The notes under the pieces are model-generated. The model saw only the letters and a program-made list of their open reading frames with translations. It had not been told where the DNA came from and made no database searches. The position numbers and the translations under genes are program-made. From a virus, in IMG/VR virus record IMGVR_UViG_3300005918_000145, positions 1 to 22,811 of that record: a stretch of 22,811 nt of DNA; one strand, 5' to 3'. Positions within the stretch are counted from its first letter, which is position 1; each line of letters begins with the position of its first letter. Below, piece by piece: positions 584 to 19,777 of the stretch.

Positions 584-814
584 TTACGCGGCATCATCGA
601 AAGGGAAGTAGTTTAAAATGTTCATGTGGTTGCAGTTTCTCCTCAAACACTTAATCTTTAGGTTGCCGTGAACCCAGATATCCACAGGTGGATTCCCAGG
701 ATCGTTTGGATTCCGTCCGAAAACAAAATGATATAAGCCGTTTGGGGTTCTTTCTATTAACTTCTTACCACACTTCTCGCAAATAACAAAGCTTCTTTTA
801 TCCATATGGATCAC
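584..814 (-). CDS. Small zinc-ribbon protein, Com-like
   Basis: This 76-residue protein has a CxxC pair (ICEKCGKKL, residues 11-19) and a second Cys pair late in the chain (KIKCLRRNCNHMN, about residues 53-65), the layout of a zinc ribbon. The second half matches the pattern of phage Mu Com-type translational regulators, in which an IxIKCxxC motif ends in His/Asn. Here, however, the second pair is CxxxxC and about 35 residues separate the knuckles. The start is GTG at 814, overlapping the TGA of the tail terminator candidate (GTGA), which suggests translational coupling; an ATG at 805 is an alternative. In Mu, Com binds RNA and activates translation of mom. No mom-like gene is next to it here; the neighbour is the tail tube gene. 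The regulatory role is inferred. Confidence 0.6.
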   Translation of the reverse strand: MIHMDKRSFVICEKCGKKLIERTPNGLYHFVFGRNPNDPGNPPVDIWVHGNLKIKCLRRNCNHMNILNYFPFDDAA

Positions 815-1456: not shown

Positions 1457-1666
1457 TCAGCCTCCTTTTATTTCGCTCGACAAATCAGAAAGCGTCTTAA
1501 AAAACACATCCTTTAAATAGGTGGCGGCCTCGGCAAGCTCTGGCTTCTCGTCGCTGGCAAACTTCACCTCGGAGTTATCAAGCGCGTCCAGCACCAAGTT
1601 TACCTCCCGAATGCTCATGTCCAAAATTACATGGATGTCCTTCGGTTCCACGTTTATTATTTTCAT
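1457..1666 (-). CDS. Small acidic protein translationally coupled to the cargo gene
   Basis: This 69-residue protein begins MKIINVEPKDIHVILDMS. Its ATG overlaps the TGA of the upstream gene as ATGA, so it is probably translated by coupling. It is acidic and mostly helical; the first third (IREVNLVLDALDNSEV) and last third (LAEAATYLKDVFFKTL) read as two amphipathic helices. There is no membrane segment or metal motif. Its partner could be the 230-residue upstream protein, since coupled pairs often make interacting products. I cannot name the family or exclude an ordinary tail-assembly role. Confidence 0.6.
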   Translation of the reverse strand: MKIINVEPKDIHVILDMSIREVNLVLDALDNSEVKFASDEKPELAEAATYLKDVFFKTLSDLSSEIKGG

Positions 1667-2355
1667 TTTAAGATCCCAGATGCTTCCATAAACTCTAATG
1701 TTTCATCTTGCGCTATCGCTTCAGGATAATCTTCAGCTTTCAACAATATAAACCAGCGGCCTCTCATCATAACACCCATGAGCCCTTCAAAACGTTCCCT
1801 CCCTATGGTTATCTGTTTGATTGCTCCGTTTTCTAATGTAACGCCTTCTGGTATTTTTGTAAGCATGACAACCTTTGTGTTTTCCCACCATTCACCGCAG
1901 CACTTTATTTGATAATCTTCAAGGACAAACACATGATCTATTATTTCTTTGTACCCACTAAAAACTCTAACGACTCTCTGCGTTGGGATATTCCCACTTA
2001 CCCGGTTCGTTTTTAATTTCGGGCAAGATCCTTCCCACGGAATTTCAATGCGCCGTGTAACCGTCAGCCCAAACTCGAAGGGAGATCCAATCTCTTCGTA
2101 ATCACCATAATCGCTCCCCAACCGGATAAACCCAAAATCACCGAGAGCTAGTTCATTTAAAAACGCATCAACAGCTTGGACAATCGGATCGTCATCGTGC
2201 CAATCGTAGGATAAATATACCCCTATGTAAGCGCCATCGGGGTTTTTAAACGAAGACTCGATGCTTGGCTCCAGTCCCGCCAGCGCCTCAGAGAACCCTT
2301 CAGCGCGCTTCTCATCAACGACTATCGCTATTTTGTCTGTATTCTCATTGAACAT
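1663..2355 (-). CDS. Promoter-driven accessory protein of unknown function (moron candidate)
   Basis: The frame is open up to an ATG at 2433, but that codon overlaps the -10 of the promoter at 2429-2457 and so cannot be in that transcript. The ATG at 2355 has a good GAGGAG site and starts MFNENTDKIAIVV, giving 230 residues. The N-terminal half is strongly acidic around residues 46-100 (YDWHDDDPIVQ, GSDYGDYEEIG). The C-terminal half is beta-rich with KCCGEWWENTK near residue 155. I do not recognise a family. The gene lies between the gp10-like gene and tail genes, where phages often carry cargo, and it has its own regulated-looking promoter. An acidic, possibly nucleic-acid-mimicking surface would fit an anti-defence or regulatory protein, but that is inference only. 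Confidence 0.75.
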   Translation of the reverse strand: MFNENTDKIAIVVDEKRAEGFSEALAGLEPSIESSFKNPDGAYIGVYLSYDWHDDDPIVQAVDAFLNELALGDFGFIRLGSDYGDYEEIGSPFEFGLTVTRRIEIPWEGSCPKLKTNRVSGNIPTQRVVRVFSGYKEIIDHVFVLEDYQIKCCGEWWENTKVVMLTKIPEGVTLENGAIKQITIGRERFEGLMGVMMRGRWFILLKAEDYPEAIAQDETLEFMEASGILK

Positions 2356-2428
2356 ATATTTCTCCTCGCGTCTCGACTGTGGTAGAAGGTGATGAGGAAC
2401 CGATTCCCTTGTCTCCCTTACTGTTTTT

Positions 2429-2457
2429 AGCATATCCGTTTACGGATATTTTGTCAA
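2429..2457 (-). promoter_or_regulatory. Sigma70-type promoter for the 230-residue cargo gene
   Basis: On the minus strand TTGACA (2457-2452) is followed by exactly 17 bases and TATGCT (2434-2429). The -35 is a perfect consensus and the -10 matches at four of six positions. Transcription would start near 2422, leaving a leader of about 65 bases before the ATG at 2355. The promoter lies just after the gp10-like gene, inside an otherwise continuous late gene array. Confidence 0.75.
2432..2449. promoter_or_regulatory. Operator-like perfect palindrome inside the promoter spacer
   Basis: ATATCCGTTTACGGATAT has two perfect 8-base arms around a central TT. It fills nearly the whole spacer and the first bases of the -10, so a bound protein would block RNA polymerase. 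TATCC/GGATA half-sites are known for some Xre-family regulators (HipB binds such half-sites with a wider gap). The binding protein is unknown. Confidence 0.65.
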
Positions 2458-2476: not shown

Positions 2477-3001
2477 TTACCGCCAATCGGCCTCCATCCT
2501 TTTCATGAATGCGTCTATGCGCTTCTTCCAGCCCGCATTCTTATATTCTTCCATGGCAGGCTCAAAAACAGGCCGCTTCTTCTTCCCGTACTCTACCACC
2601 CTGCCGTACATCTCGATGGATTTTGCATCACCTTCAGGGCCTTTCTTGCCCTTGCCATGCCAGGACTTTCCGCCTGAGTCCATGGCGCCGGGATGCACAC
2701 CACCCAGGTATCCTTCGCCGAATCGGTACGACCCAAGAGACCGCACCAAGTCACCTCTTAATCGCCACGGGGACGGATATCCGCTCCATCCGTATTCGTA
2801 TTTCCAGTTTCGGTAGCGCTTCGAATATCCAGGGCTGGGCGCACGAAGCTTCATAATCTTTTCAGTCACAAGCTGATAATAATCAGTGGCGCAGTTAAAC
2901 TGAAGCGTATCCATACCCTGCACCTTCACCGTTGTTTGAAGCCGGGCCAGGGCCGCCTTTAATCTCGCAAAATCGCTCTGGTTTATTTCAACTTTTATCA
3001 T
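2477..3001 (-). CDS. HK97 gp10-like / tail completion (head-tail joining) protein
   Basis: This 174-residue basic protein has an N-terminal helix (QSDFARLKAALARLQTTVK), a long helix with a Lys-rich end, a Gly/Ser/Trp-rich middle, and a C-terminal segment RPVFEPAMEEYKNAGWKKRI. The (R)PVF-PAM-helix ending is the hallmark of HK97 gp10-like and related minor tail or virion-morphogenesis proteins. It starts at ATG 3001, which overlaps the last codons of the small GT-A-like gene by 14 bases; this is the left border of the glycan cassette. The product probably acts at the head-tail interface or in tail completion. The right-hand partner genes expected next to it (connectors) lie 8.7 kb away because of the cassette. 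Confidence 0.65.
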   Translation of the reverse strand: MIKVEINQSDFARLKAALARLQTTVKVQGMDTLQFNCATDYYQLVTEKIMKLRAPSPGYSKRYRNWKYEYGWSGYPSPWRLRGDLVRSLGSYRFGEGYLGGVHPGAMDSGGKSWHGKGKKGPEGDAKSIEMYGRVVEYGKKKRPVFEPAMEEYKNAGWKKRIDAFMKRMEADWR

Positions 3002-3377
3002 TTGACATCACCCACCCGTTCAACACCGTTTCGAACTTGACCTCACCTTCCGGCATCAAAGAACCCTTCTCAAGCGTGATATTTTCCCTGAACAGCCTGG
3101 GAGACCGAGACGCCTTATCTCCGCCTTTCATCCTATACAGAACCAACACATCAGCATCCGTGTGCTCTATAAACACCTTCAGCCCTTCAAGAAGCTGTTC
3201 GTCTATGTGCTCATCATCGTAAATTACGCCGTACCAATCATGCTTGGAATCCGTCCCATTGATTTCGTCCAACGATTTAACAAGGTGAACTTCGCCCTCC
3301 AATCCTGCAAAAGAATCGATTGATGCTTTCGGGTCTTTCGCGTCAGCACATGATTGAACGACAAACAGGGTTATCAT
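2988..3377 (-). CDS. Small GT-A-like protein at the end of the glycan cassette
   Basis: This 129-residue protein starts at an ATG coupled to the methyltransferase stop (ATGA). The order of elements resembles a stripped-down GT2/GT-A enzyme: a first strand MITLFVVQSC, a strand plus acidic motif WYGVIYDDEHID (residues 48-59), a helix EQLLEGLKVFIEHT, a strand ADVLVLYRM, and PRLFREN. The GT2 enzyme at 8954-9667 has the same succession (FILDFDEKMSDELKDFL, then ADVVCVSRI, then ARLIRRD). At about half the normal length it lacks a full acceptor domain, so it may be a degenerate or accessory subunit. The family call is a pattern match by eye; the coding call is solid because the gene is packed between two coupled neighbours. 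Confidence 0.5.
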   Translation of the reverse strand: MITLFVVQSCADAKDPKASIDSFAGLEGEVHLVKSLDEINGTDSKHDWYGVIYDDEHIDEQLLEGLKVFIEHTDADVLVLYRMKGGDKASRSPRLFRENITLEKGSLMPEGEVKFETVLNGWVMSNDKS

Positions 3378-3922
3378 TTGGTTCCTTTTCTGAACACTAC
3401 ATCCAGGGTGCAGCTTTTATTGAGAGGGATGGTATTCACCTGAATAAGTTCTAGCCCCTTCAACCTTGGGGTAATCCGCTCAATAAATGGAACTCCGACA
3501 TTCACACGATGAGAGGGATTGCCACCGTCTTCGACAGTAGGATAGCGTCCCCCAAGCATGTCAGGCAAAAGCAGCACAATCACGCCACCTTTTTTCAGCA
3601 GCTTGGCCCATCCCAGCAGACAATCTATTATCGCTCCTTCCGTGGGCAGGTCCTCCAACATATGAGAAGAGAATATGTAATCCACAAGGCCATCGGGGGC
3701 AAACGTGACAGCATCACCTTTGATGACATCTTCACCTACCTGCTCAACCGCTATTGGCTGAGGTGCTTGATCAACATGAAGGCAATCGTCTTTCAACAAT
3801 GGACAATTACCACAGCCCATATCAAGCCCTTTCCCGATTAAGTGTTTCTCCACAAACGAAATGTTATATTCGAAACTCGGTCTAATGTTATCGAGTACCG
3901 TCTGCAATCCCGTCATTCCCAT
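3374..3922 (-). CDS. Class I SAM-dependent methyltransferase
   Basis: This 182-residue protein has motif I GLDMGCGNCPLL (residues 32-43), an acidic residue at the end of strand 2 (HVDQAP), DYIFSSHMLEDLP (81-93) in the motif IV region, and the LKKGGVIVLLLPD strand (109-121). These are the standard Rossmann-fold methyltransferase landmarks. The HMLEDLP segment resembles small sugar- or lipid-modifying methyltransferases of the UbiE/Methyltransf_11 type rather than DNA methylases, and no NPPY or PC motif is present. The start is ATG 3922 with AAGGAG. It sits between a GT8 enzyme (one base gap) and the small GT-A-like gene (ATGA overlap), so methylation of a glycan is the likely role. The substrate is inferred. 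Confidence 0.8.
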   Translation of the reverse strand: MGMTGLQTVLDNIRPSFEYNISFVEKHLIGKGLDMGCGNCPLLKDDCLHVDQAPQPIAVEQVGEDVIKGDAVTFAPDGLVDYIFSSHMLEDLPTEGAIIDCLLGWAKLLKKGGVIVLLLPDMLGGRYPTVEDGGNPSHRVNVGVPFIERITPRLKGLELIQVNTIPLNKSCTLDVVFRKGTK

Positions 3923-3923
3923 C

Positions 3924-4619
3924 TTACACTCCTTGATTTACAGCCAACGCGTGAGCATCCCATAGGTCCCGATATTCTTGAGATAATCTTGACGTAAGGC
4001 CCGGTTTAAAAATGTAATGCAGCATCCGGATGTCATCACATTTCTTGTTCGTTACTGTCGTGTATTTCCCGTGAAGCTCGGTTATGTCGCTTTTGTTAAA
4101 GTATTCGTTATAAACGGCCTGGTCCCGCCCCCATGTCCCAGGCTGTTTTTGATGCTTCAATACGGCTTCATATGTTCCCGTATTAAGATACTTCTTCCCG
4201 ACACATATGAACCCACCAAAGAACTGTTTTCTCGGACTTTCCCATACCATGCCGAGGTCAGTAGCCGGCAAATCAGCCAAGCTCCCCAGGCAGATAACGT
4301 CGGCATCGCTGAATATTACCCTGTCATACCCTTTGATATTGAACATTTCATGGCTCCAATAACCGGGCCATTCTTTGTTGTGCTGTTTGTATTTCGCTGT
4401 ATCTACCTTATGGATTATCAGGTTTTCGTACAATGCGTGAAGCTCATCAAGGCTGCCGTCTATTGATAGATGGTCATCCATATCAGTGCAAAATATATAA
4501 CACGGGATATCGAGGCCGCTATTCATCTGCAAGCTCCGCAGAGCAACTTGCGCCATAGTAAAGTAATTACATGCGTGACGCTGGTTCTTGGTGACAACCA
4601 TGGCAAAACAGGTTTTCAC
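3924..4619 (-). CDS. Family 8 glycosyltransferase (GT-A, DxD)
   Basis: This 231-residue protein shows the GT8 pattern: an N-terminal strand (FAMVVTKNQRHACNYF), a helix MAQVALRSLQ, a strand PCYIFCTD, and the metal-binding FSDADVICLGSL (residues 103-114, DAD at 105-107). Then follow GGFICVGK and the late WGRDQAVYNEYF (about residues 163-174), where GT8 enzymes have the acceptor-side GDQxxxN motif. HYIFKPG near residue 203 resembles the final HxxGxxKPW metal ligand. The start is GTG 4619, overlapping the deacetylase stop (ATGTGA), with AAGGAG five bases upstream. It probably transfers a hexose from a nucleotide sugar to the cassette's glycan. Donor and acceptor cannot be read from the sequence. 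Confidence 0.8.
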   Translation of the reverse strand: MKTCFAMVVTKNQRHACNYFTMAQVALRSLQMNSGLDIPCYIFCTDMDDHLSIDGSLDELHALYENLIIHKVDTAKYKQHNKEWPGYWSHEMFNIKGYDRVIFSDADVICLGSLADLPATDLGMVWESPRKQFFGGFICVGKKYLNTGTYEAVLKHQKQPGTWGRDQAVYNEYFNKSDITELHGKYTTVTNKKCDDIRMLHYIFKPGLTSRLSQEYRDLWDAHALAVNQGV

Positions 4620-5176
4620 ATTATCTCCTTGATAAACATATATTCTTTATCATTTAAAGAAGCATAGAAATCGAATCTATGCTCAAGGCCCCTGTCTCCC
4701 AGGCATTCCGTCATATGACCTTGGATTCGTTCTTCTGGATTATCACTTGCTAAATATGTACGGAGGCCAGCAGGTCTTTTATTGTCATTCTTTGGCACAT
4801 CTGCTACCCAATACCCTTTTTCCATCAACCCCTCATAGGTGCCTCCAGATATACGCCATCCGGGGGCTTTAAATCCTTTGGTAAGCCCTAACCGTTCAAC
4901 CCTATCAAGGCAATCCAGTGCTTCAAGCTTGGTCCAATTCTGACATTCAGGCCCATCATGACTCCAGCCATGCGGGATCATATCGACCCACGGGATTTCC
5001 TTTATTTCTTCAAGCCAAACAGGGGAACACCTTCCAACGATAGTGAAAAGGTTTACTTTCAGTTGCGGTATCTTTTCTTTCAATTTAAACAATAAATCTC
5101 GCCTATCGCAATTAAGCCCTAGTATGCCATTTTCACAAAAATCATCGAACTCTAAGATATAGGGCATTATATCCAT
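4616..5176 (-). CDS. Polysaccharide deacetylase family protein (CE4/NodB-like)
   Basis: Up to 186 residues. FDDF (residues 10-13) matches the catalytic/metal Asp pair, IPHGWSHDG (67-75) carries the metal-binding His pair, and KGFKAPGW (100-107) matches the third NodB motif (RxPY/W). The spacing is compressed but in the right order. Enzymes of this fold remove N- or O-acetyl groups from sugars such as GlcNAc using a divalent metal. Two starts are possible: ATG 5176 (overlap of ten bases with the preceding gene) or ATG 5167 (TAATG overlap with a GAGATGG site). The second gives 183 residues and keeps all motifs. Next to two acetyltransferases and an aminotransferase, it suggests that acyl state on an amino sugar is adjusted. 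Confidence 0.8.
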   Translation of the reverse strand: MDIMPYILEFDDFCENGILGLNCDRRDLLFKLKEKIPQLKVNLFTIVGRCSPVWLEEIKEIPWVDMIPHGWSHDGPECQNWTKLEALDCLDRVERLGLTKGFKAPGWRISGGTYEGLMEKGYWVADVPKNDNKRPAGLRTYLASDNPEERIQGHMTECLGDRGLEHRFDFYASLNDKEYMFIKEIM

Positions 5177-6021
5177 CTCGTTATTTCTTTTACCGTTTTA
5201 CGAAAAGTGAAATCTTTAACATCGATTCTGCATTGTGCCGCAATTTCATTTCTTTTATCAGGATAGCGCAAAAAATAGTCTACCTGTGCTGTTAATTCGT
5301 CCAGGTCTTTATATGTTGGAATAGCCTTGGATATGTCTTTAAGCCCTACGTTTTCGTCTGATATGCAGAGGCACTCGCTACTCCTAAAAATGTCCAAAAT
5401 CCTAACAGCTACAAACCCGGCTAACCTCATGTCCTCATGCGCTGAGTAAAAGGACAATCGCCCTTGGCTGAAAAGACTACCTAAAGAACGGTTGTCGATG
5501 TAATCACCTTTATAATCGACCTTATTTATCAGATCGCCCAAAGCCTTATCCCATCCAACACCTACGAGGCAAATCCTATATTTGCCAGCTTCTATAAGGC
5601 GCCTCACCGCGTCAATTCTTTTCCCATGCCTCATCGCCCCTACAAAGATTATGTCATACTTAATCTCTCTCCGAGGACCGAACCCTTTTGACGATGCACC
5701 CAGCAAGACTGAGGTTTTATCTCTGCCTGCCATAAAGCTATTTGAAAGAACAAATATGTGTTCAAACTGTTTTGCGAATTCAGGCCACTCGCTGCTCTCC
5801 ACTAAGTCCGGGTGGGAATACACCCAACAAAACCTTCGGGGCGCCGACATACGATGCCCCGAGGAATACAACCCAAATAGATAAAAATCCAAGTCAGCAT
5901 TTTCTTTTACGACTTCGTACCCCTGGATAATGAACGCTGCTTCTAAGTCTCGTTTCACCCAATAATCGCCATCTTTTATATTGTTCATGCAGTCCGACAA
6001 CGATATTATCCGTATTTTCAT
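5167..6021 (-). CDS. CgeB-like GT-B glycosyltransferase (first copy)
   Basis: This 284-residue protein has an N-terminal strand (MKIRIISLSD), a second Rossmann half beginning IKYDIIFVGAMRHGKR (about residues 120-135), a strand YRICLVGVG, and a C-terminal ILDIFRSSECLCISDENVGL (residues 228-247). The last is the nucleotide-sugar binding end typical of Glyco_trans_1_2/CgeB proteins, where a strand ends next to a conserved acidic residue. It starts with ATGA coupling to the preceding GNAT gene. CgeB-like enzymes act on surface or spore-coat glycans. A related protein is encoded at 6888-7850; both contain IIFVGA or VLFVGA followed by a basic turn. The exact sugar is unknown. Confidence 0.75.
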   Translation of the reverse strand: MKIRIISLSDCMNNIKDGDYWVKRDLEAAFIIQGYEVVKENADLDFYLFGLYSSGHRMSAPRRFCWVYSHPDLVESSEWPEFAKQFEHIFVLSNSFMAGRDKTSVLLGASSKGFGPRREIKYDIIFVGAMRHGKRIDAVRRLIEAGKYRICLVGVGWDKALGDLINKVDYKGDYIDNRSLGSLFSQGRLSFYSAHEDMRLAGFVAVRILDIFRSSECLCISDENVGLKDISKAIPTYKDLDELTAQVDYFLRYPDKRNEIAAQCRIDVKDFTFRKTVKEITRWI

Positions 6022-6467
6022 GATGCTCTACCGGCGTGTGCTAAATAAGAGATTTTCCTAACCCTCTTCAGCCCCAGAGAATCCCAAAATGGCCATAAGA
6101 AGGATTTAGTTGTGTGCTCTTCCAAAAACCGTATCCCTCTCTCTTCCATCATCGGGATGCCTTTTAAGATTGAATATTTATAAAAACCTTTTTTTCTGTG
6201 CTTTGGGTTGCATATCCCTGTATGAAATATCCCTGTACTGATTTTGTCATCAACTATAAAGAAAACAGTAGAAACAACTTTTCGTCTTTTCGTAATGAAG
6301 AATATATGTGCATTCCCTGGGACATTCCATTTGACCCCGGTTAACGATTCCCATTGTTTAACCAATGCGTTAGGCACCTCCGGCTCATCAAAAGACATGG
6401 ACTTATACCCTTTTGCGAGGATAGGTTCCGTCAGATTCAAGTCGGCTATCCGCCCTTTGAAAAACAC
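6018..6467 (-). CDS. GNAT-fold acetyltransferase, second of two
   Basis: This 149-residue protein contains IFFITKRRKVVSTVFFIVDDK (strands 2-3) and GIFHTGICNPKHRKKGFYKYSILKG (motif A region), where HRKKGFYKY takes the place of the usual R/QxxGxG/A acetyl-CoA loop. FLEEHTTKSFLWPFWDSLGLKRV at the end matches the motif B helix and the N-terminus of strand 6 in GNATs. The start is GTG 6467 behind AAGGGG, and it overlaps the upstream GNAT by 22 bases. The acetyl-CoA loop lacks the second Gly, so catalytic competence is uncertain. I considered the Mu Mom family, which is also GNAT-like, but see no specific match. Confidence 0.6.
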   Translation of the reverse strand: MFFKGRIADLNLTEPILAKGYKSMSFDEPEVPNALVKQWESLTGVKWNVPGNAHIFFITKRRKVVSTVFFIVDDKISTGIFHTGICNPKHRKKGFYKYSILKGIPMMEERGIRFLEEHTTKSFLWPFWDSLGLKRVRKISYLAHAGRAS

Positions 6468-6901
6468 ATTACCCCTTCCGAAACAGACTCACGCACCCAA
6501 CCATTTCTGCGATACATCTTCATCGCTTTGCTATTTTCAGATATGATATAGCCGTATAGTTTATGCAAACTTAGACGTTCGAAAGCATGCTCCTCAACTT
6601 TCTTCAGTATCATTCCACCCAGGCCAATCCCTCGGTATTCCGCTTCACCAATATACACCCCGGGGTCAGCACTTAGGCTTTGAGTATCGATTCCGTTCAA
6701 AGAGGCATATCCGATATCTACGCCTTTAAAATTAACAATCCAGTAGATATCACCTCTTTTGCTCATGCCTTGATACCATTGCTTTTGGCTTTCTTCCGTG
6801 ATGACCGGGTCTGTAAGGAGGTATTTCGTCACTTCGGGTGACATCCGCCATAGGCGTACTCTTTCCAAATCAGACTCTTCAATGTCTCTAAGCGTTATCA
6901 T
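6446..6901 (-). CDS. GNAT acetyltransferase, PseH/RimJ-like
   Basis: This 151-residue protein is a textbook small GNAT: ITLRDIEESDLERVRLWRMSPEV at the N-terminus, YWIVNFKGVDIGYASLNGID (strands 2-3), GVYIGEAEYRGIGLGGMILKKV (residues 81-102, with the R-G-I-G-L-G acetyl-CoA loop), and LYGYIISENSKAMKMYRRNGW (118-138), where N-S-K-A-M-x-M-Y is motif B. The W-R-x-x-P-E-V opening is shared by N-acetyltransferases that act on amino sugars, such as PseH. Next to a DegT aminotransferase this suggests N-acetylation of a 4-amino sugar. The ATG at 6901 overlaps the preceding gene by 14 bases. The substrate is inferred. Confidence 0.85.
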   Translation of the reverse strand: MITLRDIEESDLERVRLWRMSPEVTKYLLTDPVITEESQKQWYQGMSKRGDIYWIVNFKGVDIGYASLNGIDTQSLSADPGVYIGEAEYRGIGLGGMILKKVEEHAFERLSLHKLYGYIISENSKAMKMYRRNGWVRESVSEGVMCFSKGG

Positions 6902-7850
6902 TTATGAACTTCTCAGCCAGTTTATTGAACGTCCAGTTCTCAAGAACCTTCTCCCGCCCCTTCATGATAATCTCATGACCTTCCATGATATGTTTTTGAT
7001 AGTATTTGATCTTAGCAACCAAATCATCGATGTCACGCCACTGGATAATCTCATCGGATTTAAACACGCCGGACAAATCAAAATCTGACTCTATGTAGAT
7101 AAGCCCCGTCGCAAGAGTGTTCGGCAGTCTCGTAGAAGAATACCTGGTTCGCGGAAGCTTTTCGTTGTAGAACATGCCGATGCTTAAGGTATAATCCTTT
7201 GACAGCTCCACAAGCTCTTTACCAAACTTTACAGGGATATTCCCACCGCTCCCAACAACGTCAACTTTTATCCCGGCCTGCCCCAGGGCAGCAATCACGC
7301 CTTTTCTATATGGCGTTAATGCACCAACAAATAAGACAGTATCGTTCTTTTTATGTTCAACTAATTTAAAGATGTCTTCGTCTGTGGGGTGCAGCACCCA
7401 ATTAACTTCTGATCTCCACATAGGAGTTCCATATAAGGCAGCCGAGTAAATCTTTAGTTTAGGAATGCCAGCGTCCAACAAATCATGATGAAATTGAAAT
7501 CTCTCCGGGTATGCGTCTCCAAAAAAAACACTAACCGAACAGTCTGTTTTCGCCTGAACAGCTTTAACCTCAGCCACGGTTATAGGGTTGTCCCTGATAG
7601 AAGAAGCCCCTTTGCAGCTTCCTCCTAAGTGAAGATGATCAATCTTATCCGGGAACCCACCAGCGCTTATATCCCCTAATGACAATTCTCCATATCTACG
7701 GAATGCGTTTTGCCATGGGGTATTTGTAGTACCGTGTAAGTTCCTGTAATGTATTTTTGGGTTTACCTTCGGGGCCACTGCCTTCTTAGGCGTGCGCTTC
7801 TTAGTGCCTTCCACCTTGGTAGTACGTTTCTTCGCTCGTGCCTTTACCAT
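6888..7850 (-). CDS. CgeB-like glycosyltransferase with a Lys/Arg-rich N-terminal tail
   Basis: This 320-residue protein has two parts. Residues 1-29 are almost purely basic (12 Lys/Arg, such as KKRTTK and KKRTPKK) and read like a histone-tail or nucleic-acid-binding extension. From about residue 33 a GT-B-like domain follows, with DTVLFVGALTPYRKGV (about 170-185) and RYSSTRLPNTLATGLIYIES (about 236-255), the latter in the nucleotide-sugar site where CgeB relatives have R-x-x-x-x-L-A. The ATG at 7850 has an AGGAG site eight bases upstream and no later ATG before the core domain, so the tail appears to be translated. It overlaps the end of the aminotransferase gene by 50 bases. The tail could bind nucleic acid, acidic glycans or a virion surface. 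Confidence 0.75.
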   Translation of the reverse strand: MVKARAKKRTTKVEGTKKRTPKKAVAPKVNPKIHYRNLHGTTNTPWQNAFRRYGELSLGDISAGGFPDKIDHLHLGGSCKGASSIRDNPITVAEVKAVQAKTDCSVSVFFGDAYPERFQFHHDLLDAGIPKLKIYSAALYGTPMWRSEVNWVLHPTDEDIFKLVEHKKNDTVLFVGALTPYRKGVIAALGQAGIKVDVVGSGGNIPVKFGKELVELSKDYTLSIGMFYNEKLPRTRYSSTRLPNTLATGLIYIESDFDLSGVFKSDEIIQWRDIDDLVAKIKYYQKHIMEGHEIIMKGREKVLENWTFNKLAEKFINDNA

Positions 7851-8952
7851 TATGATTTCTCCTGCTAAATGAATTAATAGCTCCGATCACTGTATCCACC
7901 TCAGCATCTGTCAACCCCGGATGCATCGGCAACGATAGGATTTCCTCAAAGTATTTCTCGGCATTTGGAATGGTTGGGATATTCCCGTAACATTCATATA
8001 AATGAATCGGTTTATAATGGACTCCGGTCATAATCCCTCGGTCCTTCAGGTAAACGCTCAAATCGTTTCTTCTTTGACACCTGATACAATAGATATGCCA
8101 GGAGGACTTAGAATCGTCCGTATCCATCATTGGGGTTTCAACATCCAACAGCCCCTTGGTATATCTTTCGGCTATTTCTTTTCTTCGAGCATTCATCATT
8201 TCAAGCTTCGATAGCTGAACCAGGCCGATAGAGGCCGCGATATCGTTCATGTGACATTTTAATCCTATCTCGCCCACTGAATATTCCCACCAATAACTCT
8301 TGTTTTGATCGCTCCTGTTCCATGTGGATTTATCAATCCCTAACCACCTGAGCTTTTTGGCCCTCTCGTACATCTCTTCATCGTCCGTGGTGATGGCCCC
8401 TCCATCCCCCATGGCCAAATTCTTTACAGCATGGAAGCTGAAAGCCCCCATTGTCCCGAGACTCCCGCATCTGGCCCCTTTATAGACAGCTCCAGCGGCA
8501 TGGGCGGAATCTTCTATGATAGGTATATCCCCGGCGATTTCTTTCAGCCGATCCATGTCTACAGGCCGTCCAGAATAGTGGACAGGGATGATCGCCTTTG
8601 TTCTTTTGGTAATCTTTCGAGCAACATCCTCCAGGTCAATTAATAAATTATCGTCCACATCCGCGAATATGGGTTCTGCTAGATTATATTTCACTACGTG
8701 AGCGGTCGAAACAAACGTCATTGTGGGGACAATCACCTCGTCCCCGTGATTAATTCCCAATAGCTTTAACGACAAGTCCAAAGCCGCAGTTGCAGAATTG
8801 AGTCCAACCGTATAACGGCACCCAATGTATTCAGAGAATTGCTTTTCGAATTGTTCCGTCTTTGGACCCAAGCCAATCCATCCAGATTCAAAGATGCTCC
8901 TCAAGCTCTCCAGCTCCTCATTTCCCATATATGGCTTAAATAGACTAATCAT
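7801..8952 (-). CDS. DegT/DnrJ/EryC1/StrS-family sugar aminotransferase
   Basis: With the ATG at 8952 (one base after the GT2 stop) the protein has 383 residues. LFKPYMGNEELE opens as in the family. The PLP site is clear: GLNSATAALDLSLK (50-63) cups the phosphate, EDSAHA (147-152) holds the PLP-pyridine Asp and His, and SFHAVKNLAMGDGG (172-185) carries the Schiff-base Lys177. GVHYKPIHL near the C-terminus matches the conserved substrate loop. These enzymes transfer an amino group from glutamate to a keto-sugar nucleotide (PseC, ArnB and WbpE types). The open frame also extends upstream to 9003, but that would overlap the GT2 gene by 50 bases without a ribosome site. No dehydratase making the keto sugar is in the window, so the host or another locus must supply it. 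Confidence 0.9.
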   Translation of the reverse strand: MISLFKPYMGNEELESLRSIFESGWIGLGPKTEQFEKQFSEYIGCRYTVGLNSATAALDLSLKLLGINHGDEVIVPTMTFVSTAHVVKYNLAEPIFADVDDNLLIDLEDVARKITKRTKAIIPVHYSGRPVDMDRLKEIAGDIPIIEDSAHAAGAVYKGARCGSLGTMGAFSFHAVKNLAMGDGGAITTDDEEMYERAKKLRWLGIDKSTWNRSDQNKSYWWEYSVGEIGLKCHMNDIAASIGLVQLSKLEMMNARRKEIAERYTKGLLDVETPMMDTDDSKSSWHIYCIRCQRRNDLSVYLKDRGIMTGVHYKPIHLYECYGNIPTIPNAEKYFEEILSLPMHPGLTDAEVDTVIGAINSFSRRNHNGKGTSEETYYQGGRH

Positions 8953-8953
8953 C

Positions 8954-9667
8954 TCAAGCCCCGTACATCGCGAATTCAGGTGCCAGCCTGGCCTCAAAAA
9001 CATCCGGCTCTAAGCCGAGCGTCTTGCGCCTTGCCTGCGTGGTGGCCCAAAGGATTTCAATATTTTCTCGGTCCCTAGCGTCTGCCTTACCGTGGTAGTG
9101 AATGATGTCCGTCCGCTCCCGGGTAATTTGTTTTTCCGGACCGATCAAGACGTGATGTGGAGAATTGATGAAAAACATCTTCGGGTCTCTCCGGATTAAA
9201 CGTGCCTGCCAATCGGGGTACTCCCCTATAGTGTGTGACGGCACCGGGAACCCTTGCTCATCCAGAAGCGCAAAGGGGGAATCGTCATGGCGCATGGATT
9301 CATGCGATATCCGAGACACGCAAACTACGTCGGCGTCCATGGGCATGCCATCCTTATCTACGCTTTCAAGGAAGTCTTTAAGCTCATCGGACATCTTTTC
9401 ATCAAAATCCAGGATGAAGCAAACTTCACCCGTTGGAATGTATGTCAAAGAAATGTTCCGCTGCATACTCTGAGCCGCATGATACCCACGGTCATAAAAA
9501 TGCTGGTACACTTCGCATTTCGGCCATTGGTTCAGCTTATGAACGGTGAAGTCCTGGCTGCCGCCGTCGATAACAATCACCCTGGACACCCAGTCAAGAT
9601 CGTGGAAGTCGCTAATCACCGGGTCCACCATCTTCTCTTCGTTTAACGATTGCATTAGGATGATCAT
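8954..9667 (-). CDS. Family 2 glycosyltransferase
   Basis: This 237-residue protein is a compact GT2: an N-terminal MIILMQSLNEEKM (where E10-E11 is the usual N-E-E), the nucleotide-binding IDGGSQDFT (33-41), GYHAAQSMQRN (61-71), and the metal-binding LDFDEKM (86-92, DFD). PDWQARLIRRDP (about 155-166) matches the acceptor-side strand. It starts at an ATG overlapping the stop of the large fusion gene (ATGA) and ends one base before the aminotransferase. The order resembles family enzymes that transfer one sugar to a glycan or glycoprotein. The acceptor is not known. Confidence 0.85.
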   Translation of the reverse strand: MIILMQSLNEEKMVDPVISDFHDLDWVSRVIVIDGGSQDFTVHKLNQWPKCEVYQHFYDRGYHAAQSMQRNISLTYIPTGEVCFILDFDEKMSDELKDFLESVDKDGMPMDADVVCVSRISHESMRHDDSPFALLDEQGFPVPSHTIGEYPDWQARLIRRDPKMFFINSPHHVLIGPEKQITRERTDIIHYHGKADARDRENIEILWATTQARRKTLGLEPDVFEARLAPEFAMYGA

Positions 9668-11670
9668 ATTAATTTCTCCAAAGCCTTTTTAACGATAAGC
9701 GGTGAAATGGTATTGATGCACGGGGAATTACACTGCTCGTTACGCCCCCAGCAATGGGTCATGCTTTTGCACACCTTCAGCATGTCCGGCTTCAGGTTAA
9801 TGATTTTACATCCTTGGACTTTGGGTTGGACCACCCTCGGCGGCGCCGGACCATAAACGACCACGGCATCCGTTCCAACAGCACCGGCCAGGTGAGACAA
9901 GAAGCTGTCCACGACAACAGCCGCTTTTGCGTGCTGCATGATCCAAGCTGATTCTTGCCAAGTGGTCTTTCCACGAAGATCGACCGCACCCTCACATCGC
10001 AAATCACTCGGGCCTCCCAACTGAATAAATTTCTTATCACCCAGGCTTTTAATGACTTGATCCATATGCGGGTAAGATCGATACTCTTTGCTTCCACCCG
10101 TTGTATGCACCACGATGTAATCGGTGTAAGAACCCCAGTGGGTTTCCCACCATTGGGGGCAAACGGGGGCAATAAAGATATCGTCCGATTCAACCTTCGT
10201 GAAATACGGATACATGCTGTGTAAAGTCACATCTAAATTGTTAAACCCGCCGTTGATGATATGTTCACCATGGGGGTTGTAGACGACCTCATATCGCTTC
10301 AGGTGCCGTTCATCCCACTCGATAATTTCGTCAAGATACGGGTTCCCAAAGACCACCCCTGCAAAGACCTTCTGGGTCATATAAACCAAGGGCATATCCG
10401 GATGCCGTTCCTTGATTCCCTTAAAGCACTGGGTCGTCATGAGGACATCCCCGGCAGAAGAATGCTGGGCGAACAGCACCGCTTCAATCTTCTTCTCAGA
10501 TTTTCGTTTCTTGCCAGCTTCGTTCAGGAGGTCGTTGATGTTGCTCACATCAGCCACCCAGTTTTTAGAAACGTCCAGCCCGTTCTGAATCATGTCTTTT
10601 CGATCCGAATCAGCAACCGACAAAATAGCGTCTCGGATATCTTCCACTCGGCAAGCCTTGGATTCCACAGAATCGTTCCGGCCTTCCATGCCACCCATCG
10701 GTATATACGAAAGGTCCTTGCACAAAACCATGAACCCGGCATCTTTTACCAGTTCCGACTGAGCCGTGGTATCAGATGCAACCACAGGCGTTCCGCAAAG
10801 CATGGCCTCAAGAGGTGTCCATGATAAACCCTCTTGCATACTGCAATTCACCAGGCAGTCAATGGCATTGTAAATACCCGGCATTTTCGATCGGTCGTAA
10901 GAAACGTCTGGTTGCTTGGCCACCAGGTCTCCATTGACAGCGCCGTTGGCTTGAGCAATCTGCTTCAGGTTATGGTATCCGTTCATGTCAGTATGGAGAT
11001 AAAGGACCATCTCAGGGTTGGTTTTCTTCGCTTCAAGAAACGCCTTCACAAGACGCTCGGGGGATTTCCGAATCTGGTTCTTTCCGACAAACCCGAATAT
11101 CGTTTTACCTATCGGGATGTTCGGGAATACTTCCATCCTTGCAGTGAATTTATCGGACGGGACAAATGTTTCCCAACCGTTTAATCTAGGCCGATAATAC
11201 TGGATTTTAGGCACGTGAGGTTTCAGCTGATCGTAGCCGTACTGGGAATAAACGCACGGGAAGTCAAGATCATTCAGAGGTCCTACCCAGCTTTTCTGGA
11301 GGTCCCAGGTATCGTAAGGGAATATCGCAATCCACTTGAACTTCTTCGCGTCCCGTAAAGACCGGATGGCGTTCCAAGCCGATAGGTATCGCCAGAAGTC
11401 TATGCCGACCATGCACAGGTAATCGAATTGCGTTTCTTGAATAAGGGAGATAAGGCGATTAGTTCCCCAGTAATCATTGGAGGTCGTACCGTTCACAAGA
11501 GTGTAGGGCAGCGGGTCAAACAGAACCGCAGAGGGGTTGGTTTCGTTCACAACAAAGCAGGCAGCCTGATATTTGTCGTGGTCAAGGTCCGACAAAATCG
11601 CGGCCAGCATGTTGGCATTTCCAGTTGTTCCGAGAGGGTTTTCACCCACGAAGAGAACTCGTTTTTTCAT
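9664..11670 (-). CDS. Two-domain glycosyltransferase: GT4 fused to GT9 (heptosyltransferase-like)
   Basis: This 668-residue protein is a fusion. Residues 1-385 form a GT4-type GT-B enzyme: TIFGFVGKNQIRKSPERLV (190-208) starts the donor half and NCSMQEGLSWTPLEAM (275-290) carries the E-x7-E pair (E280, E288), followed by GTPVVAS. A Lys-rich linker (GKKRKSEKK, 386-394) leads into a GT9 domain with AQHSSAGDVLMTTQCFKGIK (401-420), VVHTTGGSKEYRSYP (520-534), LGGPSD (551-556) and VVVDSFLSHLAGAVG (585-599). These are the landmarks of the ADP-heptose:LPS transferase family. A Cys-rich end (CKSMTHCWGRNEQCNSPC) may bind metal. The ATG at 11670 has AGGAGG. It opens the glycan cassette and probably adds two successive sugars. 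Confidence 0.9.
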   Translation of the reverse strand: MKKRVLFVGENPLGTTGNANMLAAILSDLDHDKYQAACFVVNETNPSAVLFDPLPYTLVNGTTSNDYWGTNRLISLIQETQFDYLCMVGIDFWRYLSAWNAIRSLRDAKKFKWIAIFPYDTWDLQKSWVGPLNDLDFPCVYSQYGYDQLKPHVPKIQYYRPRLNGWETFVPSDKFTARMEVFPNIPIGKTIFGFVGKNQIRKSPERLVKAFLEAKKTNPEMVLYLHTDMNGYHNLKQIAQANGAVNGDLVAKQPDVSYDRSKMPGIYNAIDCLVNCSMQEGLSWTPLEAMLCGTPVVASDTTAQSELVKDAGFMVLCKDLSYIPMGGMEGRNDSVESKACRVEDIRDAILSVADSDRKDMIQNGLDVSKNWVADVSNINDLLNEAGKKRKSEKKIEAVLFAQHSSAGDVLMTTQCFKGIKERHPDMPLVYMTQKVFAGVVFGNPYLDEIIEWDERHLKRYEVVYNPHGEHIINGGFNNLDVTLHSMYPYFTKVESDDIFIAPVCPQWWETHWGSYTDYIVVHTTGGSKEYRSYPHMDQVIKSLGDKKFIQLGGPSDLRCEGAVDLRGKTTWQESAWIMQHAKAAVVVDSFLSHLAGAVGTDAVVVYGPAPPRVVQPKVQGCKIINLKPDMLKVCKSMTHCWGRNEQCNSPCINTISPLIVKKALEKLI

Positions 11671-11693: not shown

Positions 11694-12314
11694 TTATCTT
11701 CTGTCTTCTTCGACTATGAGCACGTCCACGTTCGGGTAACGCCTTGGGTCAATGGTCGTGACCATGTAATACTCGCCTGCATACGGTGTCCATCTATCCA
11801 GGACTTGGGCACCTATTGATTGGGATATAAGAACCTCGTTCTTGTTTAACCCTATCAGCGCCAGTTCTTCATCTGTTGCCATGTCATTCCCGTAAAGCGC
11901 CGCCACGTGCATGGCGTCACAGTCACTCTTGATGACTTCCCACTCAGTTTCTTTGTGGTATGAATTGTTATCCCAGGATTCGCCGCTGGGCCTTGACAAT
12001 TCGCCACTTGCAATGTTGCATTTATAGAGAACCGTATCGTAATAAACAGAAGCGTTCTCGAACAACTCAGGTAACATATTCGTTACGAGGAAACGGGTAT
12101 CGGTGACATCGAACTCAATAACATCGCCCGTTGACATCTGAGTATCATAAGATGCCATAAGCTTGCGAAATGCTTCGATAGTTAGGGGCTTGGTTACTTG
12201 CGTTGAGAATTCAAGAATCCCGTATTCTCCTGAAATATTCCCAGCGTCTTGGAGGATTGTGAACGTAGCGCCAACATCTTCAATGGCACCTTTTATGTCA
12301 TTGCCAACGCTCAT
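11694..12314 (-). CDS. Probable head-tail completion (head closure) protein
   Basis: This 206-residue protein has an N-terminal helix (GNDIKGAIEDVG), then beta-rich sequence (ATFTILQDAG, YGILEFSTQ, DVIEFDVTDTRFLVTNML) and a C-terminal YAGEYYMVTTIDPRRYPNVDVLIVEEDRR. It starts directly at the stop of the connector candidate (TAA then ATG, no gap), suggesting coupling. Size, beta content and position, two genes downstream of the HTH protein and just before the cassette, fit a head-closure or head-tail stopper protein. No diagnostic motif is visible, so the assignment is by synteny only. It is the last structural gene before the glycan cassette. Confidence 0.55.
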   Translation of the reverse strand: MSVGNDIKGAIEDVGATFTILQDAGNISGEYGILEFSTQVTKPLTIEAFRKLMASYDTQMSTGDVIEFDVTDTRFLVTNMLPELFENASVYYDTVLYKCNIASGELSRPSGESWDNNSYHKETEWEVIKSDCDAMHVAALYGNDMATDEELALIGLNKNEVLISQSIGAQVLDRWTPYAGEYYMVTTIDPRRYPNVDVLIVEEDRR

Positions 12315-12764
12315 TTAAGAACCCGGAGTAATTATGGTTTCATTGTAATCACTGTAAGTCATATCCCGGCCAGTCTGGGGCTCCGTCTTAAACCCGGCAT
12401 CAATCTTCGAACCAGCCAGCTCATAGGCTGAGACACCAGCAAACTCAAAAGCGTTCTCTTCCTGAGCCTTCTCGAAGTTCTTATCCATCACATCTATAAT
12501 CCGCATGTAATGTTCGAAACGATGGTTAAGATAAATGGCCTTGAACCGAAATTTAGCCGCCGACTCAGACATCAGAAAGAAAAACAAATGTCGTTTAGAA
12601 CGATCCAGCAACCACTTCAGCTTAAACTCGCCAGTTTGCGGAAGGTCCCATCCGGTATCGCGCTCGGCAGCGTCAATGGCGTTTCCGTAATCAGCGTCGG
12701 CAAGGCTGGACGTTAAGCCCTTCACCTCAGCCTGGAGCTGCGTGATCATCTCAGTCCTGGTCAT
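12315..12764 (-). CDS. Probable head-tail connector (gp6-like adaptor)
   Basis: This 149-residue protein is mostly helical: MITQLQAEVKGL, DADYGNAIDAAERDTGW, FKLKWLLDRSKRHLFFFLMSESAAKF and RFEHYMRIIDVMDKNFEKAQEENAFEF. The bundle of four helices with a DxGW turn is reminiscent of gp6/gp15-type connector adaptors that sit under the portal ring. The first ATG is 12764 (overlapping the preceding gene by 14 bases); ATG 12749 one base after the stop is an alternative and has a closer AGGA. The gene order (HTH protein, this, closure candidate) fits the portal-to-tail junction. The family call is inferred from fold-like pattern and position. Confidence 0.55.
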   Translation of the reverse strand: MTRTEMITQLQAEVKGLTSSLADADYGNAIDAAERDTGWDLPQTGEFKLKWLLDRSKRHLFFFLMSESAAKFRFKAIYLNHRFEHYMRIIDVMDKNFEKAQEENAFEFAGVSAYELAGSKIDAGFKTEPQTGRDMTYSDYNETIITPGS

Positions 12765-13215
12765 CTTCTTTCACCTTCTCAAATTCTTTAATGATCAAAG
12801 CTATGGATTCATCGTTGGGAGTGCTTTTGCCAGAGCGCCACCTGGATACGGCCTGATACGAAACTCCAAGTCTCTTCGCTGCGGCTGAAATGGACGGACT
12901 TTTTTGGATTATTGCTTCCAGCTTGGGTAGGTAGGTTGTTTCAGGCAATGGAACGTCTAAAAGCTCCACTTTGGGTTCTTCAAACCCGGTAGGCGCGATA
13001 TTGGTATCATCGAGCCACGGGGTCTCTTCCACATCCTGTTCGATTTTTGTTTCAGTCACAGCAAAGGGACTCTCTGCCAGGACACGCACAACGGTCGACC
13101 CGTCACGCACTTCTCTTAAGATGTTATCTGGAATCGGGGAAACGGCATCGTCAAACACCGTCCCCTTCCTCCAGATTTTAGCACCTTTTAACGTAACTAA
13201 AATTTCGACTTTCAT
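12751..13215 (-). CDS. Structural-cluster protein with a C-terminal helix-turn-helix domain
   Basis: This 154-residue protein has an N-terminal beta domain (MKVEILVTLKGAKIWRKGT then IPDNILREVRDGSTVVRVL) like small proteins often found just after the major capsid gene. An acidic linker (TKIEQDVEETPWLDD) follows, then a helix-turn-helix at about 108-131, where SISAAAKRLGVSYQAVSRWR has the classic helix 2-turn-recognition helix spacing, followed by GKSTPNDESIALI. The C-terminal domain resembles Cro/Xre-type or YdaS-type DNA binding. A DNA-binding protein among head genes is unusual. It could regulate the phage, pack DNA or mark a DNA-contact point in the capsid. The start is ATG 13215 with AGGAG nine bases upstream. 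Confidence 0.75.
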   Translation of the reverse strand: MKVEILVTLKGAKIWRKGTVFDDAVSPIPDNILREVRDGSTVVRVLAESPFAVTETKIEQDVEETPWLDDTNIAPTGFEEPKVELLDVPLPETTYLPKLEAIIQKSPSISAAAKRLGVSYQAVSRWRSGKSTPNDESIALIIKEFEKVKEDDQD

Positions 13216-13235: not shown

Positions 13236-13706
13236 TTATGCGGGTTCAAACACCACGGCAATAGCGAAGGTACACATCTCAGTTGTGGGAGAAGCGGTCC
13301 TCGTCAAAGTCATGTCATAAGTCAATACATCGCCGTAGGACACATCGTTATTGTCACCGTCCATGGCGCATTGGGTGACGCCGGTATCAGCATCATCCTT
13401 TGTGGTTTTATTCGTGCTGGCCTCACCGCTCACATGAGCAATCACAGGCGCTGTGTCCAGGCACGAAGTACCGTTAATTTTAACATCAGCGGTAACGGAC
13501 AGCGTATCCGAATCGTCCTTCCCGCTCGCTCCAACAGACAGCCAAACATCGGAGATTTTGCCGGCAATATTGCAGGCGCCCAAAGCTCTACCGGGCGAAC
13601 TGGCCGAAAACTCCCCTGAAATAACCGCCATCATGGGCGATACTTCATTCGCCGCCCACTGCTTCCTTGCTCCGATGCTGGGGTATGGTCCACGTCTCTG
13701 TTCCAT
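13236..13706 (-). CDS. Small secondary head protein of unknown role
   Basis: This 156-residue protein has a basic start (MEQRRGPYPSIGARKQW) and then a Thr/Ser/Asp-rich beta sandwich pattern (ISDVWLSVGASGKDDSDTLSVTADVK, VLTYDMTLTRTASPTTEMCTFAIAVVFEPA). The alternating hydrophobic pattern and low charge suggest a surface-exposed head decoration or fibre-like protein. It begins 11 bases after the capsid stop with a GGGGGTG ribosome site. Similar beta-rich proteins next to the major capsid gene are often decoration or spike proteins, but I recognise no family. A virion structural role is inferred from position. Confidence 0.6.
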   Translation of the reverse strand: MEQRRGPYPSIGARKQWAANEVSPMMAVISGEFSASSPGRALGACNIAGKISDVWLSVGASGKDDSDTLSVTADVKINGTSCLDTAPVIAHVSGEASTNKTTKDDADTGVTQCAMDGDNNDVSYGDVLTYDMTLTRTASPTTEMCTFAIAVVFEPA

Positions 13707-19212: not shown

Positions 19213-19392
19213 TTATGGATATTTCTTATCCCAACCAGGCCAGTTTATGGGGCCTTCGATTTTAGTAACCTCCCTGAAGGTGCATTTCTCACAGTCATTC
19301 ACATATCTCACGGGAGGAATGCAAAGGTGTCTGCCGATGTCCCATCTTAAGGCTGCTCCGCATCTTCTACAGATTACGATTTCGTCTTTCAT
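19213..19392 (-). CDS. Small zinc-ribbon protein downstream of the nucleotide hydrolase
   Basis: With the ATG at 19392, which overlaps the preceding TGA (ATGA) and has a GGGAG site, the protein has 59 residues. IVICRRCGAAL (6-16) and VNDCEKCTF (32-40) are two CxxC knuckles of a zinc ribbon, with a conserved HLCIPP between them. A TTG at 19410 would add six residues but lacks a site. The C-terminal half (EGPINWPGWDKKYP) is Trp/Pro-rich. This differs from the Com-like proteins by having no IKCxxC motif. Its role is unknown; coupling to the hydrolase gene suggests coexpression. Confidence 0.65.
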   Translation of the reverse strand: MKDEIVICRRCGAALRWDIGRHLCIPPVRYVNDCEKCTFREVTKIEGPINWPGWDKKYP

Positions 19393-19775
19393 GGCCCGGA
19401 CTCCCGCCAATTTTCTGAAATCTCATCCTGGGTTGGGACATCGCTTCTACAACCTCGATAAGCCACTTCAACGCTTGAACTCCTACCGCACTCCTTAAAC
19501 TCCAGAAGCGCCAGGATATTCCAGGCCAAGTGCGCCAAGTGAGGCAAGCCGCTCTCCTCATCCAAATCATCCGATGCCAGAAGATGCCGCCACAGAGCGT
19601 CCATGTACCTTTCTTCAGCGTTCTCGACGTTCCGCCAGCTATTCCTGGAATACTTCTCAGTACCGAATGTCCCTACCTTCGCCACTTCCATGAGCGCCCG
19701 CCTGAAGTCCAGAAGCACCCCCGCCTGAATCTTACCGGCATCGTGCTTTAGTGGGTCAACCTTTAATTCACCCAA
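19389..19775 (-). CDS. DUF5664-like (MazG-type) nucleotide pyrophosphohydrolase
   Basis: This 128-residue protein starts at TTG 19775 within the end of the RNA ligase gene. The pattern KHDAGKIQAGVLLDFRRALMEVAKVGTFGTEKYSRNSW (10-47), then ERYMDALWRHLL and DEESGLPHLAHLAWNILALLEF (about 72-93), is that of the DUF5664 family (dATP/dGTP diphosphohydrolase N-terminal domain), related in fold to MazG. The GxxKYxxxNW, RHLxA and D/E-SGxxHLxHxxWN motifs are present. Such enzymes remove or reshape dNTP pools and are frequent in phages, some with modified DNA bases. The first seven codons are nearly identical to those of the RNA ligase gene because both lie in copies of the 22-bp repeat. Confidence 0.7.
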   Translation of the reverse strand: MGELKVDPLKHDAGKIQAGVLLDFRRALMEVAKVGTFGTEKYSRNSWRNVENAEERYMDALWRHLLASDDLDEESGLPHLAHLAWNILALLEFKECGRSSSVEVAYRGCRSDVPTQDEISENWRESGP

Positions 19776-19777
19776 AA
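19756..19777. repeat. Direct repeat copy 1 (start of the hydrolase gene)
   Basis: A 22-base sequence beginning tcaacctttaat and ending cacccaaaa matches 20810-20831 at 21 of 22 positions. The single difference is one t/c. The copies are 1,054 bases apart and lie exactly at the start codons of two successive genes. This copy overlaps the last codons of the RNA ligase gene. Confidence 0.85.

Follow-up and report, generated by a model that had tools for sequence, protein, structure and literature searches.

A sugar-enzyme cassette between two candidate neck genes

The window analysed here is a 22,811-base virus fragment (IMG/VR record IMGVR_UViG_3300005918_000145) in which every recognised gene lies on the minus strand. 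Positions 2988-11670 are occupied by eleven open frames, c1 to c11 in the direction of transcription, that encode mostly sugar enzymes and lie between conn2, a neck candidate, and a gp10-like gene. An initial annotation had described eleven same-strand genes between these two flanks, and this layout was confirmed. We propose below that the cassette is most likely a virion glycosylation locus. In order of transcription, the genes of the junction are:

11694-12314, minus strand: conn2, neck/head-closure candidate by position, fixed left neighbour of the cassette
9664-11670, minus strand: c1, GT4-GT9 fusion glycosyltransferase (GT), fixed left end of the cassette (Pfam Glycos_transf_1, 3.5e-13; Glyco_transf_9, 8.8e-8)
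8954-9667, minus strand: c2, GT2 glycosyltransferase (Pfam Glycos_transf_2, 2.8e-5)
7801-8952, minus strand: c3, DegT/PseC/ArnB-like sugar-nucleotide 4-aminotransferase, likely start 8952 (Pfam DegT, 4e-112)
6888-7850, minus strand: c4, GT-B transferase with a Glyco_trans_1_2/CgeB-like C-terminal half, start 7850 or GTG 7814 (Pfam Glyco_trans_1_2, 2.2e-7)
6446-6901, minus strand: c5, PseH-like GNAT acetyltransferase (Pfam Acetyltransf_3, 5.6e-17)
6018-6467, minus strand: c6, GNAT-like by eye only, from motif-like residues; start may be 6398
5167-6021, minus strand: c7, second GT-B transferase with a Glyco_trans_1_2/CgeB-like C-terminal half (Pfam Glyco_trans_1_2, 2e-11)
4616-5176, minus strand: c8, CE4-deacetylase-like motif residues (DDF, HGWSHDG) by eye only; start may be 5167
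3924-4619, minus strand: c9, GT8 glycosyltransferase (Pfam Glyco_transf_8, 1e-6)
3374-3922, minus strand: c10, candidate S-adenosylmethionine (SAM)-dependent methyltransferase (Pfam Methyltransf_11, 7.8e-4)
2988-3377, minus strand: c11, minimal GT-A-fold protein of 129 amino acids (aa), fixed right end of the cassette (AlphaFold2 and structure search)
2477-3001, minus strand: gp10-like tail-completion/Neck1 candidate, fixed right neighbour of the cassette (relatives match PHROGs 5, 222 and 26)

Nine of the eleven enzyme labels given initially are supported by sequence or fold, the methyltransferase weakly, while the second GNAT acetyltransferase (c6) and the CE4 deacetylase (c8) had no match in Pfam, PHROGs, NCBIfam or PDB sequences. 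The GT4, GT9, GT2 and GT8 matches all exceed their Pfam cut-offs. In ten diverse orthologues of c1, E280 of the EX7E motif is invariant and E288 at least 90% conserved, and the DSF.SHLAGAVG segment, a GT9 motif, is also kept. The LDFDE motif of c2 is invariant, and the protein's only sequence relative in the PDB is SunS (E 1e-4). The NCBIfam models for ArnB and PseC gave c3 309 and 305 bits, both below the equivalog cut-offs (423.5 for PseC), and the PseH model gave c5 86.8 bits (cut-off 93.1), with PseH as its top PDB match (4xpk, E 2.9e-8). A DAD motif was seen in c9 by reading, and c9 has relatives in other cassettes. Relatives of c10 occur in several cassettes; c10 itself falls just under the Methyltransf_11 cut-off (20.5 against 21.2 bits). 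Judged by their families, c3 and c5 together would imply an N-acetylated 4-amino-sugar, its 4-keto precursor being supplied by the host. PseB dehydratase, PseG, PseI and PseF had no family match in the window's cassette; the host could supply these as well.

The 23-nucleotide (nt) gap between conn2 and c1 contains only a ribosome-binding site, c11 overlaps the start of the gp10-like gene by 14 nt, and neither cassette end leaves a gap for a promoter. The overlapping starts and stops described initially hold for the gp10-like start, but the long overlaps at 7801-7850 and 8954-9003 stem from choosing the most upstream start, and the downstream starts ATG 8952 and GTG 7814 reduce them to about 0-14 nt. 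Promoter-like sites in the window fall below shuffle expectation and terminator-like sites slightly above it, both counts being uninformative. The middle genes c3-c9 have a G+C fraction (GC) of 0.40-0.456, against 0.516-0.529 for capsid, portal and gp10.

The last gene, c11, was modelled with AlphaFold2. Seven close sequences gave a useless model (predicted local distance difference test, pLDDT, 41.8), whereas a 27-sequence alignment gave a confident one (pLDDT 93.7, predicted template modelling score 0.87) with a compact GT-A fold. The nearest PDB folds are the glycocin S-glycosyltransferases ThuS and SunS (VIA-align Z 13.0 over 126 residues at 2.7 Å; Foldseek E 6e-5). The DXD position is occupied by Y-D-D/N-E at the expected strand end, with E56 invariant, D54 present in 23/27 sequences and D55 in 16/27. 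Since only the glutamate is invariant, c11 may be either an enzyme or an adaptor. The idea that c11 is a recent fragment of c2 was not borne out, a c11-c2 profile comparison having given no match.

Fixed ends and an exchanged middle in related phages

Relatives were collected by scanning viral contigs with capsid, neck, c1 and c11 proteins, and were gene-called and labelled by iterated profiles. The gene caller favours short overlaps, which makes exact start positions soft, and the c1 contigs include some close copies, the 45 full-length c1 proteins falling into 38 clusters at 95% identity. A c1 orthologue stands beside conn2 in all 52 of 52 contigs, immediately downstream in 49 and within four genes in three, and recurrence of the arrangement on this scale is far beyond chance. 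At the other end, c11 immediately precedes the gp10-like gene in 26/32 contigs. In 5/32, all from a single lineage, the two are separated by one inserted gene for a divergent tail-tube-like paralogue (24% identity; L059:6682-7206, plus strand), and in L095 an unlabelled gene comes after c11.

The 25 complete cassettes span 2 to 16 genes and 2.4 to 11.1 kb, and 182 of their 220 internal junctions overlap or lie within 5 nt. The minimal cassette, in contig L092, is c1 plus c11 alone, and in six contigs plus G015 the site is empty, conn2 being joined directly to gp10. The comparison of this junction across related genomes, which had been put forward with the initial annotation, found the cassette at this place in every c1-bearing contig and the bare flanks joined in the empty-site relatives. 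The view that the cassette is built into the virion operon was upheld, as every relative with a cassette carries it at this junction, and it is probably co-transcribed with its neighbours. Its description as an unusual case was not: a cassette at the neck is the norm across a large group of uncultured phages, and its ends are fixed while its middle varies.

Across relatives, the middle contains GT4, GT2 and GT8 transferases, B12-radical-SAM and other radical-SAM enzymes, methyltransferases, a carbamoyltransferase and a pyruvyltransferase-like protein. Further nucleotide-sugar and decorating enzymes are added in these cassettes, among them GDP-mannose-dehydratase-like and RmlD-like enzymes, a cytidylyltransferase and a GFO/IDH oxidoreductase. 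One of the most frequent genes of the middle encodes a B12-binding radical-SAM enzyme (L067:5572-6777, plus strand; 18 family members) and is usually placed just before c11.

The trees of conn2 and c1 retain a clade of seven backbone relatives (support 99 and 100), which is rejected by the c2 tree (approximately unbiased test, p-AU 3e-10) and not by the c11 tree (p 0.45); this clade was picked from backbone identity, though pairwise c2 identities had already been seen. The clearest case of exchange is contig L107, whose c2, c3, c4, c5, c7, c9 and c10 are 68-78% identical to those of the window, against 45% for terL, 51% for portal, 48% for conn1, 42% for conn2, 52% for c1, 28% for c11 and 43% for gp10; among the backbone proteins the capsid alone is similar (73%). 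The cassette ends follow the phage backbone, and c2 and the middle are exchanged between phages, a pattern that by analogy resembles O-antigen loci. Genes for GIY-YIG/NUMOD3 homing endonucleases occur at the left edge of the cassette in two relatives (L064:13366-14217, plus strand; and G003, between conn1 and conn2) and are possible movers of the variable part.

Sister phages have a second site in the head operon. In G015, whose neck site is empty, the portal-protease interval encodes a 1054-aa multi-GT2 protein, a methyltransferase, a DegT fragment and a PglD-like acetyltransferase. Similar glycosyltransferase islands lie between portal and protease in L030 and L043, and just upstream of the protease gene in L040. 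L079-L083, like L030, L040 and L043, are sister phages with a glycosyltransferase island in this region instead of at the neck, and a B12-radical-SAM protein with the same domains as that of the neck cassettes was seen in the island of L040 (L040:2074-4284). No portal-protease glycosyltransferase island was found in those c1-bearing contigs whose portal-capsid interval could be read.

The surrounding head and tail genes

In the direction of transcription, the window carries a terminase fragment, an RNA ligase, a pyrophosphohydrolase-like gene, portal, an S49-type protease (PHROG 53), a decoration-like protein, the Phage_cap_E capsid, a 156-aa Ser/Thr-rich protein, a helix-turn-helix protein, two neck candidates, the eleven cassette genes, the tail-completion/Neck1 candidate and tail genes; the terminase, portal and tail labels are partly based on gene order. 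The genes of this series that matter for the argument are:

13718-14944, minus strand: Phage_cap_E capsid
13236-13706, minus strand: g13236, Ser/Thr-rich 156-aa protein adjoining the capsid gene, a speculative acceptor lead
12315-12764, minus strand: first neck candidate

The initial labels for the cassette's two flanks fared differently. All three PHROGs matched by relatives of the gp10-like gene bear the name "tail completion or Neck1", in support of its label, while profile searches with conn2 gave no match and its head-closure label is positional. A PDB sequence search with profiles of conn1, conn2, gp10, tt1 and g13236 found no credible relatives, and neither RNA families nor tRNA were found in the window.

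Several neighbours deserve mention in their own right. The gene at 584-814 (minus strand), between tail-terminator-like and tail-tube-like genes, encodes a zinc-ribbon-like protein of 73-76 aa with Cys pairs of the CxxC type, which is among the best conserved in the whole group (43-82%), even where capsid identity is 45%. The gene at 12751-13215 (minus strand) encodes a Cro-like helix-turn-helix C-terminus; almost all relatives have it between the capsid and the connector genes, an odd position for a DNA-binding domain, and its length varies from 71 to 206 aa. An RNA ligase (GC 0.356) and a dATP/dGTP-pyrophosphohydrolase-like gene lie at 19389-20829 (minus strand) between terminase and portal, and of the contigs compared just two, the window and a near-identical contig, showed the ligase. 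A 256-aa gene without a family match (1663-2433, minus strand), between the gp10-like and tail genes, is likewise confined to the window phage and that contig, which is longer (30,775 bases) and has the same gene order. Close relatives of the window phage are metagenomic contigs only, and no close capsid relative was found in phage collections. Distant relatives gave no host assignment, as they fall in bins of metagenome-assembled genomes from four unrelated groups and may be misbinned viral contigs.

A candidate virion glycosylation locus

We propose that the cassette enzymes glycosylate a virion protein in the host cytoplasm, and we put the probability of this reading at about 72%. The cassette would be transcribed and translated together with the head and neck genes, and its soluble enzymes would act in the cytoplasm while virion subunits are made. 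Host nucleotide-sugars would be modified by 4-amination (c3), N-acetylation (c5) and methylation (the methyltransferase), and the glycosyltransferases would build a short glycan directly on a putative virion acceptor before or during assembly, perhaps with the steps in this order. The fixed ends c1 and c11, as backbone genes, would probably perform the acceptor-specific steps, with c2 and the middle genes setting a glycan chemistry that is exchanged between phages. Of the earlier suggestion that the cassette assembles and then modifies a glycan, the enzymes for making and decorating it stand, and the deacetylation and second acetylation are unproven. We further offer, tentatively and at somewhat less than even odds, that this is a phage glycotype locus, the virion counterpart of a bacterial O-antigen cluster: c1 and c11 (an acceptor adaptor or initiating enzyme) would fix the glycan to a virion protein, and the exchanged middle would switch its chemistry, giving near-identical capsids different sugar surfaces.

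The enzymes of the cassette lack the usual partners of surface-polysaccharide synthesis. None of 344 cassette proteins is clearly membrane-bound, that is, reaches a 19-residue hydropathy of 2.1, against 30/589 other proteins of long contigs (p about 1e-6), and among the genes scanned with Pfam no lipid-carrier glycosyltransferase, flippase, polymerase or GtrA/Oac-type family was recognised. GT4 and GT2 matches are almost confined to the island, even in contigs of 50-90 kb. Phage surface-polysaccharide changes usually require membrane proteins. As no membrane or lipid-carrier parts were recognised, glycosylation of a virion protein is favoured over late host-surface remodelling, in which the enzymes would alter host lipopolysaccharide (LPS), capsule or teichoic acid, blocking superinfection or the binding of progeny to debris. 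The relatives also differ from this rival, which had been raised at the outset: their genes always lie in the neck module of the head-neck operon, with no room for a promoter of their own, and not in a host-surface or lysogeny locus, and the sister islands occupy another head-operon site. A lipid-linked intermediate on the inner leaflet could still be within reach of soluble enzymes, and we regard host-surface remodelling as unlikely but worth keeping in view.

As to the acceptor, the kinship of c11 and c2 with the peptide glycosyltransferases SunS and ThuS would fit a protein. A speculative place to look first is g13236, which has a conserved TRTASPTTE-like stretch and was found in 39/49 cassette-bearing contigs (duplicates removed) but was absent from all of the roughly ten contigs that have a readable site and no neck cassette, a distribution confounded by kinship.

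Several points weigh against glycosylation of the virion. For the window phage it is a prediction from gene content. GT9 (heptosyltransferase-like), GT8, CgeB-like, sugar-amine and other sugar-nucleotide enzymes are also typical of LPS or capsule loci, and a hypervariable glycosyltransferase island before a neck gene in pelagimyophages was interpreted by its authors as serving host LPS remodelling (PMC7029224), which is a precedent for the host-surface explanation. The proximity of c11 and c2 to SunS and ThuS may merely reflect the small number of solved GT2 structures. The gene c11 also occurs without the other cassette genes in L095 and so might serve a structural purpose that has nothing to do with sugars, and integrase genes are present in some relatives.

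These last two points bear on further rivals. If c11 were a neck assembly factor with a GT-A-like fold and the remaining genes unrelated glycan enzymes carried as passengers, its presence without c1 in L095 and its DXD-like site with a single invariant residue would be accounted for; the empty-site relatives, however, lack c11 despite having the same neck genes, and the minimal cassette of L092 is exactly c1 plus c11, and we find this explanation highly improbable. Integrase-family genes, found in 3/25 virus contigs searched (G005, G009 and G035), and the lower GC of c3-c9 would suit lysogenic-conversion cargo (morons) parked in the late operon without a virion role. Yet no integrase was found in the other 22 contigs, several of them over 80 kb though all fragments, morons usually carry their own promoter, and the cassette ends co-evolve with the backbone, which leaves this alternative very unlikely. 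Glycosyltransferases of phages can also sugar-coat phage DNA against restriction, even with complex glycans (Pyle 2024, as cited in PMC12619734). For such DNA hypermodification a thymidylate-synthase/hydroxymethylase-family gene might be looked for, but none was found in 15 long contigs (themselves fragments); the cassette adjoins neck genes and its exchange pattern is unexpected for DNA modification, and we give this possibility hardly any credence.

Glycosyltransferase genes in structural operons are already known. Corndog has an O-methyltransferase, two glycosyltransferases and an N-acetylglucosamine-transferase in the portal-protease interval (PMC4351075), the one occupied by the islands of the sister phages, and its gp38 is reported as indispensable for glycosylating the capsid (Freeman 2023, as cited in PMC12363180). 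Like the window phage, Corndog (cluster O) and Che8 carry glycosyltransferase and methyltransferase genes inside the structural operon, and their virion proteins are glycosylated, whereas for the window phage we argue from gene content. Corndog also has four genes, against 2-16 here, at another junction, with fixed ends, an exchangeable middle and nucleotide-sugar enzymes. A tblastn search with c1 and c2 against 50,697 phage records gave no mycobacteriophage match, including to Corndog gp36-38 or Che8 gp110, as far as sequence search can tell. Pontimonas phage phiPsal1, which carries GT4-methyltransferase-GT2, and Microcystis phage Mae-JY09 have a GT4 between the capsid and the neck/adaptor genes that is akin to c1's first half, but these sets are small, with no GT4-GT9 fusion and no mini GT-A end gene, and identity is about 27-30% over part of c1. 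The host-recognition cluster of pelagimyophages and cyanomyophages by the neck gene gp14 (PMC7029224) is likewise a large hypervariable island with several glycosyltransferases beside a neck gene; it belongs to T4-like phages, measures about 45 kb and includes tail fibres, and the available part of that report describes no constant end genes. Two candidates were set aside: the Aphanizomenon phage Yong-DA record with a DegT gene also encodes Wzy/Wzc-type export proteins and ParA/ParB, which does not look like the structural region of a phage, and in Streptomyces phage SF3 the B12-radical-SAM relative is not among the head genes. Literature searches on phage glycosylation islands returned nothing on this phage group. 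What is new here is a richer, modular cassette with fixed ends at a junction not reported in the literature covered.

Parallels for the proposed chemistry lie further afield. In cytoplasmic flagellin O-glycosylation (Maf/FlmG plus the Pse pathway; PMC7591256) soluble transferases glycosylate self-assembling subunits in the cytoplasm with PseC/PseH-type sugars; that system is bacterial, and neither a homologue of Maf or FlmG nor the complete Pse pathway was found here. SunS and ThuS share the GT-A fold of c11 and weak sequence kinship with c2, and their acceptor is a peptide, but c11 is only the fold core (129 aa against chains of 333-421 aa) and no bacteriocin peptide gene was seen. In the chlorovirus PBCV-1, virus-encoded soluble glycosyltransferases build the capsid glycan, and c11 has a weak fold match to a PBCV-1 glycosyltransferase (2p72/2p73); PBCV-1 is a eukaryotic algal virus with unrelated capsid and gene layout.

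To our knowledge, only a few actinobacterial phages have been shown to have glycosylated virions, and the known effect there is on antibody recognition. If our reading is true, sugar coats would be a routine and fast-evolving part of some natural virions, in a setting where mammalian antibodies are not the selective force. The group offers a comparative design, with the same backbone carrying different middles alongside empty-site sisters, and the c1 plus c11 cassette of L092 provides a minimal two-gene system for finding the acceptor and the function.

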